A DNA stretch of 64,000 nt from Bdellovibrio bacteriovorus (GTDB taxonomy: Bacteria > Bdellovibrionota > Bdellovibrionia > Bdellovibrionales > Bdellovibrionaceae), in the NCBI RefSeq assembly GCF_025558485.1, contig NZ_CP102930.1, forward strand, positions 806,001 to 870,000, given 5' to 3'. Positions 44,093 to 45,549 of this stretch are shown here, one piece after another (the first letter of the stretch is position 1; every line of letters begins with the position of its first letter). The notes under the pieces are model-generated. The model was not told the origin of the DNA, did no database searches, and saw nothing but the letters and a program-made list of their open reading frames with translations. The position numbers and the translations under genes were made by a program.

Positions 44093-44656
44093 TTAGTCAA
44101 AAGTGATCATCAAGTTAGCACCCACGGCACGGTAGTCTTTTAGACCTTTCGCCGCTTCACCACTTGCTGATTCATAATACAAAGTCGCACCCAACTGCGG
44201 AGCAAACTTAAAGCTTGCACCGATCAACAATGGAATCAGAGGAGATTTAACATCTGTCACCTTACAGCCGGTCGCATCACAAGAGCTGTCCAGATTCATA
44301 CCCAAAGAAACCCCGGCAAAAACACCTGCGTACTCTTCAAATTTGTACATAAGCGCCACTGGGATATCCAGATAGTTCATGCTGATTTTTGCCTCATCGC
44401 CGGAATTGTCATCCTTTGCAATCAAAGGTCTTTGCGTGAACAGCATCCCTGTGCGCAGATGCAAAGGACCAGAAATCGGGAAATGTGCCGTCGCGCCAAA
44501 CTGGAAACCCATCTGAGATTTAGCAGAAGAAGTCGCCGCATCCACTTCACCGGACTGCTGACGAATACCCACTTCCAAACCATAATCAATATCAGCCAAA
44601 GCAACCGAAGACATCATCCCCAAAGCCGCAACAACCAAAACCGCTAACTTCTTCAT
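44093..44656 (-). CDS. Outer-membrane beta-barrel protein
   Basis: A 187-residue protein with a cleaved signal peptide (MKKLAVLVVAALGMMSSVALA). The mature part is alternating amphipathic strands (DYGLEVGIRQ, HLRTGMLFTQRP, IPVALMYKF, LGATLYYESA) ending ANLMITFD with a C-terminal Phe next to last, typical of small OmpA-like or PorT-like barrels. One likely disulphide (SCDATGC). AGGAGG sets the start at 44656. Function unknown. Confidence 0.8.
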   Translation of the reverse strand: MKKLAVLVVAALGMMSSVALADIDYGLEVGIRQQSGEVDAATSSAKSQMGFQFGATAHFPISGPLHLRTGMLFTQRPLIAKDDNSGDEAKISMNYLDIPVALMYKFEEYAGVFAGVSLGMNLDSSCDATGCKVTDVKSPLIPLLIGASFKFAPQLGATLYYESASGEAAKGLKDYRAVGANLMITFD

Positions 44657-44719
44657 TACATCCTCCTGAAAAAACCGATTGAGACTATTCAATAGTTCCC
44701 GTAAATACTACCAACACCA

Positions 44720-44820
44720 GTACGCCGAAGCATTAGTTTTTACAAGGCGCAAGGAGAAAGGCGTACTCCCAGTACACCGCCGACGAAGCAACGCAGCTAA
44801 AAACTAATGATCCGGTGTAC
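44720..44820. repeat. Nested palindromic element, 101 bp
   Basis: Outer arms of 23 bases (44720-44742 and 44798-44820) match at 20 positions in inverted orientation, each ending CATTAGTTTTTA; an inner hairpin GTACT-CCC-AGTAC lies at 44763-44775 with GGC/GCC flanks. It begins three bases after the stop codon of the truncated membrane gene and lies before the beta-barrel gene. It looks like a small non-autonomous or REP-type element; no T-run makes it a simple terminator. Confidence 0.7.
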
Positions 44821-44823
44821 GAC

Positions 44824-45549
44824 TTATTTGTCGAGGCACCAGGGGGCATTTAATGCCATCTCATTGATAACCTTATCCAAAGAGACTTCACTGTGCTCCA
44901 AAGCAAGGTGATGGGCTTCCACTGTGCCACGCGCCGCAAGAACGATAATAACCAATGGCAGCAGGATTCTTAACAGAATTTCAATCTTACCACCCGGCTG
45001 GGGTGAGTATTCATCCTTCCAGTCGCCGAACTTCAGGCTTTTCACCAGCATGTATCCAAGACTGAATAGCAATACGGTGATCACTGTGAATATCCACGAT
45101 TGATTAGCCGGCATAGTTTGGAATTGCTGCAACCACGGATCAAAGCTCCACTGACTGTATTCAGCCCAACGCATACGCTGACCAAACTTTGCAAAGTGGA
45201 AGAAGTCCACATAAGTCAAAATACAGATCAGAAACCAAACCACCACAAAATAGAGCTTATAAAATACAAACAAAGCTTTCGGCCACTTTTGCGAAAACGC
45301 CTGAAGGATCACCAGGAAATAAATCGGCAAAAAGATAAATCCGAAAATCAGCAGATCAAATCTGAAACCGGCAAAAAAGGATTGGGCAATTTCAACAAAC
45401 GCCGCATTCGGTGTCGCATGAAAAACTGAAAGGAAATACAAGTTCATGCGGAACAACGTCATGAATGCGATCAACGCCACTGCCAGAAAACCCAGCTTAA
45501 AGAACACTTTCGTTGAAAAACGCAGGGAAAAGATAAAACGATTGGGCAT
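44824..45549 (-). pseudogene. LTA-synthase/sulfatase-type membrane protein lacking its catalytic domain
   Basis: A 241-residue product with five transmembrane helices (roughly 15-38, 60-80, 85-105, 115-140, 180-200). The loop FHFAKFGQRMRWAEYSQWSFD and the exit AARGTVEAHHLALEHSEVSLDKVINEMALNAP are the conserved membrane part of YejM/LtaS-like alkaline phosphatase superfamily proteins, whose 350-residue catalytic domain normally follows at once. Here a stop comes seven residues later, right before a 101-bp palindromic element. So it is probably a truncated gene; it might still be expressed as a membrane stub. Start ATG 45549 (MPNRFIF). Confidence 0.7.

Follow-up and report, generated by a model that had tools for sequence, protein, structure and literature searches.

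The window analysed here is a stretch of 64,000 nucleotides (bases 806001-870000 of the 3.34-Mb genome of Bdellovibrio bacteriovorus), and the features under study lie on its minus strand. An intact gene for a 241-amino-acid membrane-only relative of the LtaS/YejM-type proteins (coding region 44827-45549, stop codon TAA at 44824-44826), so classified from its orthologues in 17 of 18 congeners, from profile alignment and from a structural model, is followed directly beyond the stop codon by a palindromic element of 106 nucleotides (44718-44823), whose sense strand is that of the gene. Next comes the gene for an outer-membrane beta-barrel protein (44093-44653, also minus; Pfam OMP_b-brl_2, E 4e-11, and synteny). 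The earlier note on this DNA rightly described the end of the reading frame as adjoining a nested palindrome.

The element was matched at 91.7 bits (E 2.1e-20) by a covariance model that we built from 18 copies, and its layout is a conserved core of about 53 nucleotides between arms of about 26 bp. Read on the gene's strand (minus), the window copy begins directly 3' of the stop codon with a 5' arm (44797-44823) that makes 21 Watson-Crick pairs with the complementary 3' arm (44718-44743). The core between them (44744-44796; CTGCGTTGCTTCGTCGGCGGTGTACTGGGAGTACGCCTTTCTCCTTGCGCCTTG) is common to the copies here and in other genomes and carries an inner hairpin, GGTGTACT-GGG-AGTACGCC. The sense core of the window copy contains CCUUUCUCCUU, in place of which most copies have CCUUCCUCCUU; the string recalls the anti-Shine-Dalgarno end of 16S rRNA, a likeness that may be accidental. 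In two copies (L047:1466-1584 and L050:1481-1579) the core forms a three-way junction, its 3' half having a further hairpin whose stem varies in sequence.

The suggestion that the palindrome is a dispersed, REP/MITE-like repeat was borne out, as it belongs to a multi-copy family with insertion-polymorphic sites. The genome-wide search proposed in the earlier note returned nine copies with the covariance model, which also detected the element in 19 of 24 congeners (1 to 26 copies each), in 54 of the 141 genomes of the order and, at E below 1e-6, in 63 of the 369 genomes of the phylum. No match was obtained in Rfam at the gathering score (four loci searched) or in collections of phage, plasmid and viral contigs, a scan of GTDB genome contigs for exact occurrences of the core returned a Bdellovibrio record as the sole match, and no description of the element was found in the open-licence literature. 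We read the element as a dispersed, inserted palindromic repeat of the Bdellovibrionota, a family previously unlisted. In one genome, which has 15 copies and gave no match for a Y1 transposase, three copies follow one another within about 300 bp at two places (G013:C1, about 2255600-2255950 and 2398670-2398980; L118 and L066), some of their arms being poorly paired.

The placement of the copies is a sharp and testable puzzle. The base of the stem lies at the stop of a co-oriented frame in 47 of 95 distinct copies, and on the mirrored side in 1 of 95, counting frames of at least 120 codons that end anywhere from 26 bases within the stem to 7 bases beyond its base, in most cases no more than 5 from it, with mechanical gene calls around the copies. 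In seven of the genomes examined, all of the genus (L099, L107, L115, L116, L117, L141 and L147), a copy also directly adjoins the 5' side of tRNA-Trp, and three of them have a second copy beside tRNA-Thr(ggt); these copies are antisense to the tRNA genes.

Comparison of sister species revealed both occupied and empty sites. At L156, genome G001 has 107 bp where its sister species G018 has 3; at L125 the figures are 91 bp in G012 and 1 bp in G032. The L100 copy of G002 is missing in both G006 and G000, and G030 retains a decayed remnant of it. From these three comparisons, a unit of about 90 to 107 bp, made up of the core and the greater part of the arms, enters as a whole, and copies can pass vertically and can decay. 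The three cases yielded no rule of target duplication, and the only target remnants seen are short palindromes (GTAC; CAGCAC-GA-GTGCTG); the latter is the empty L125 site of G032, so the outermost bases of the arms can derive from the target. The single arm at the apparently empty L100 site of G030 might have suggested that the element duplicates its target in inverted form, a reading that was rejected because G030 retains the first bases of the core and thus holds a decayed copy.

Neither an enzyme that mobilises the element nor a parent transposon was found. Y1 transposase genes occur in 21 of the 24 genomes, their number being only weakly correlated with that of the element (rho 0.46); no Y1 gene is present in one genome that holds 15 copies. 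The three Y1 loci examined (L173, L174 and L182) carry a different palindrome, GGGGTATCGGTCA / TGACCGATACCCC, which is probably the own REP of RAYT-type Y1 genes. Both the weak correlation and this separate palindrome speak against Y1 transposases as the movers of the element. The element model does match weakly just downstream of Y1 genes (L186:1462-1588, L182:1326-1451 and L174:1260-1362), where the core has a third hairpin. The inserting enzyme would act from outside the element and would prefer short palindromes or the 3' ends of genes.

The arms of the element evolve in concert. Their sequences vary from copy to copy, but every 5' arm is complementary to its own 3' arm: over 95 copies the median pairing score is 19.8 with the own partner versus 4.2 with the arm of another copy, so that the palindrome stands far above chance. 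In this and the following comparisons the copies are not all independent, and p-values are indicative only. Changes on both sides are seen in 25 of the 26 arm pairs of the alignment, moving the pairing along by a single column cuts the share of paired cells by half, and the inner stem of the core covaries too. The arms are not random, as subfamilies share inner-arm motifs (e.g. CAGATAAGTTTTCTC, CAGCTGAC..GCATCTGG and ATTAGTTTYTA). In the orthologous copies (22 pairs), both sides had changed with Watson-Crick pairing kept at 29 stem positions, and one side at 27; two-sided changes would be rare under independent point mutation, hence the concerted evolution, and they are clustered, with nine in L040/L095 and five in L142/L145. 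Sense-strand G-U is not in excess among the unpaired states, with 86 G-U versus 137 A-C overall and 4 versus 11 in orthologous copies. Such a lack of sense-strand G-U preference argues for a process at the DNA level, e.g. template switching between the arms, and the pairing bias, if it says anything, favours folding of the antisense over that of the sense strand. Template switching is reported to homogenise the arms of inverted repeats (PMC8604942, PMC7202029), and it is probably what homogenises the arms here. The hairpin would be a hotspot of replication template switching (a quasi-palindrome), where a change in one arm would be copied into the other, so that the arms would stay complementary while their sequence drifts.

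Selection on the stem of a functional structured RNA, or of an RNA-processing site, could also make the arms covary. The conserved core with its covarying inner stem, the constant size of the element, its anchoring at stop codons and the retention of copies beside tRNA-Trp in seven genomes speak for such an RNA. One copy (L094, L103 and L108) is moreover 99-100% identical across three species over flanks that are 84-87% identical, unlike other copies, which diverge faster than their own flanks, and this suggests that some copies have a function. For the family as a whole, however, we consider a structured RNA unlikely, as sense-strand G-U is outnumbered by A-C, which reads as G-U on the opposite strand, the two-sided changes are clustered, and the distribution is sporadic, with empty sites.

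A role as transcription terminator of the upstream gene would agree with the position of about half of the copies right past stop codons, in a fixed orientation, but it is improbable. No U tract follows the stem (among 83 copies, T reaches at most 0.47 at single positions and forms no run), ordinary terminators stand before the element at L102, L109, L113 and L106 and after it at L037 and L043, and the copies beside tRNA genes are oppositely oriented. Much the same placement, a stem base at a stop codon in fixed orientation with a variable stem sequence and wobble pairs biased to the antisense strand, recalls the attC recombination sites of mobile gene cassettes. This resemblance very probably misleads, since the stem lacks a conserved heptamer (R boxes) in positions 1-9, the copies are dispersed rather than arrayed, and the upstream gene in the window is syntenic and conserved, and thus no cassette.

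This gene had been described in the earlier note as truncated, ending abruptly, perhaps through a deletion or insertion mediated by the element, with a true membrane-only variant as the alternative. It is the alternative that holds. A search of 18 further genomes of the genus turned up an orthologue of the 241-amino-acid protein in 17, with 46-79% identity; the C-termini of all 17 fall at the same residues, ...NEMALNAVWCFDK or small variations of it, and are followed by a TAA, TAG or TGA stop codon. The residues that are invariant near the C-terminus include H213, H214, E218, N229, E230, W237, C238, D240 and K241. A constant end point with varying stop codons indicates, as far as such an alignment can tell, that the C-terminus of the protein is under selection. 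At the orthologous loci an outer-membrane barrel gene of like type follows closely downstream. In the congeners, where the short protein likewise lacks the catalytic domain, the next open reading frame, which starts like the gene of the barrel protein, begins 6-61 bp past the stop codon, which leaves no room for the element, and no palindrome was found between the two in those read downstream. Relatives with an equally short protein that lacks the domain are what the earlier note had named as refuting its main reading. The element thus sits directly past the stop of an intact gene here, at a site that holds no copy in the congeners, and its presence has not altered the end point of the protein. 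That the element deleted the catalytic domain or inserted into the gene, leaving a stump, is hardly credible despite the contact of stop codon and palindrome, given the identical protein end in congeners without the element and the result of the search for the lost domain, which found none downstream, the other sulfatase-domain matches of this genome lying far away in frames of 615-721 amino acids.

The earlier note was right that the protein ends where the catalytic part should begin. By hhalign, its residues 16-241 align with residues 17-242 of a 653-amino-acid sulfatase-family protein of the same genome (probability 89%, E 2e-6), and it stops where this paralogue continues into the catalytic part; two further full-length relatives gave profile matches over parts. 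Sequence searches of Pfam, NCBIfam and the PDB with the 241-amino-acid protein gave no match above the cut-off, and the Pfam scan did not find the catalytic sulfatase domain PF00884 in it. The best VIA-align match of its AlphaFold2 model (mean pLDDT 77) was PbgA/YejM (6xlp, Z 8.7 over 200 residues), with YejM/LapB (7t6d, Z 8.4), 6v8q (Z 8.0) and MCR-1 (7.2) among the others; Foldseek gave no match below E 0.001, its top rows being mostly helical receptors. As the Foldseek result is not significant and a Z near 8 is modest for helical bundles, the five-helix membrane fold of YejM is likely but not proven. A scan for the LapB zinc ribbon (PF18073) yielded one match per genome, in a frame of about 467 amino acids, and also a match in B. 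subtilis, so that, from the sequences, RadA is a more likely identity than LapB.

The gene is thus an old, intact, membrane-only relative of LtaS/YejM/MCR, kept throughout the genus. It is probable, and we hold this with fair assurance, that gene and palindrome at 44718-45549 are two independent things that happen to adjoin, the one a conserved membrane-protein gene, the other an inserted repeat with arms homogenised as proposed above. Counting against this explanation are the failure to find a mobilising enzyme or a rule of target duplication, the one copy that is better conserved than its flanks, the lack of a significant Foldseek match for the protein and the strong bias in the placement and orientation of the copies, which simple mobility does not account for. 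One might speculate that the elements are anchored at stop codons throughout the phylum because their core is recognised on a folded strand by cellular or transposition machinery, the stem drifting by continual copying from arm to arm; we regard this as possible, though doubtful. The gene, which annotation would take for a broken one, is now cleared, and in its product a naturally membrane-only YejM/LtaS-like protein becomes available for study. The family of repeats, for its part, provides many natural replicates of a palindrome with jointly changing arms, through which the proposed template-switch homogenisation of inverted-repeat arms could be measured in bacterial genomes.

Among known systems, PbgA/YejM is the nearest to the protein. 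Salmonella needs the membrane domain of PbgA/YejM (residues 1-190) to live but can do without the periplasmic domain (PMC6921655); as the membrane domain suffices there for viability, a membrane-only member of the family is plausible, and by analogy with that role the 241-amino-acid protein probably works without a catalytic domain. Its model aligns with residues 1-212 of PbgA (the match with Z 8.7), but it has no periplasmic globular domain, and the identity in the structural alignment is about 10%.

For the palindrome, the nearest classes are the REP elements and the MITEs. REP elements are GTAG- and CGTC-tagged palindromic repeats, some of which form dimers inside longer palindromes (PMC3733652). 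Like them, our element is a short, dispersed, intergenic palindrome without coding capacity, and its core has a CGTC string ahead of the inner stem. However, CGTC occurs inside the core only, with no conserved tag at the base of the stem (positions 1-4), and the stem of about 26 bp exceeds the 5-13 bp of the CGTC/GTAG REPs. With an additional inner stem of 7-8 bp, the whole reaches about 105 nucleotides, against 20-40 bp for those REPs. The long outer stem of free sequence, an inner stem without initial A-T pairs or a CCA tail, the precise anchoring to stop codons and the occurrence in Bdellovibrionota (Bdellovibrio is not named in PMC3733652) set it further apart. As in MITEs, the copies are non-autonomous inserted units with terminal inverted repeats and show insertion polymorphism at orthologous sites of relatives. 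Unlike those of MITEs, their terminal repeats are not common to the copies, each arm pairing with its own partner only, and no parent transposon was found. In anatomy the element thus resembles a REP or a MITE, but by definition it is neither a GTAG/CGTC REP nor, as its terminal repeats differ from copy to copy, a typical MITE.
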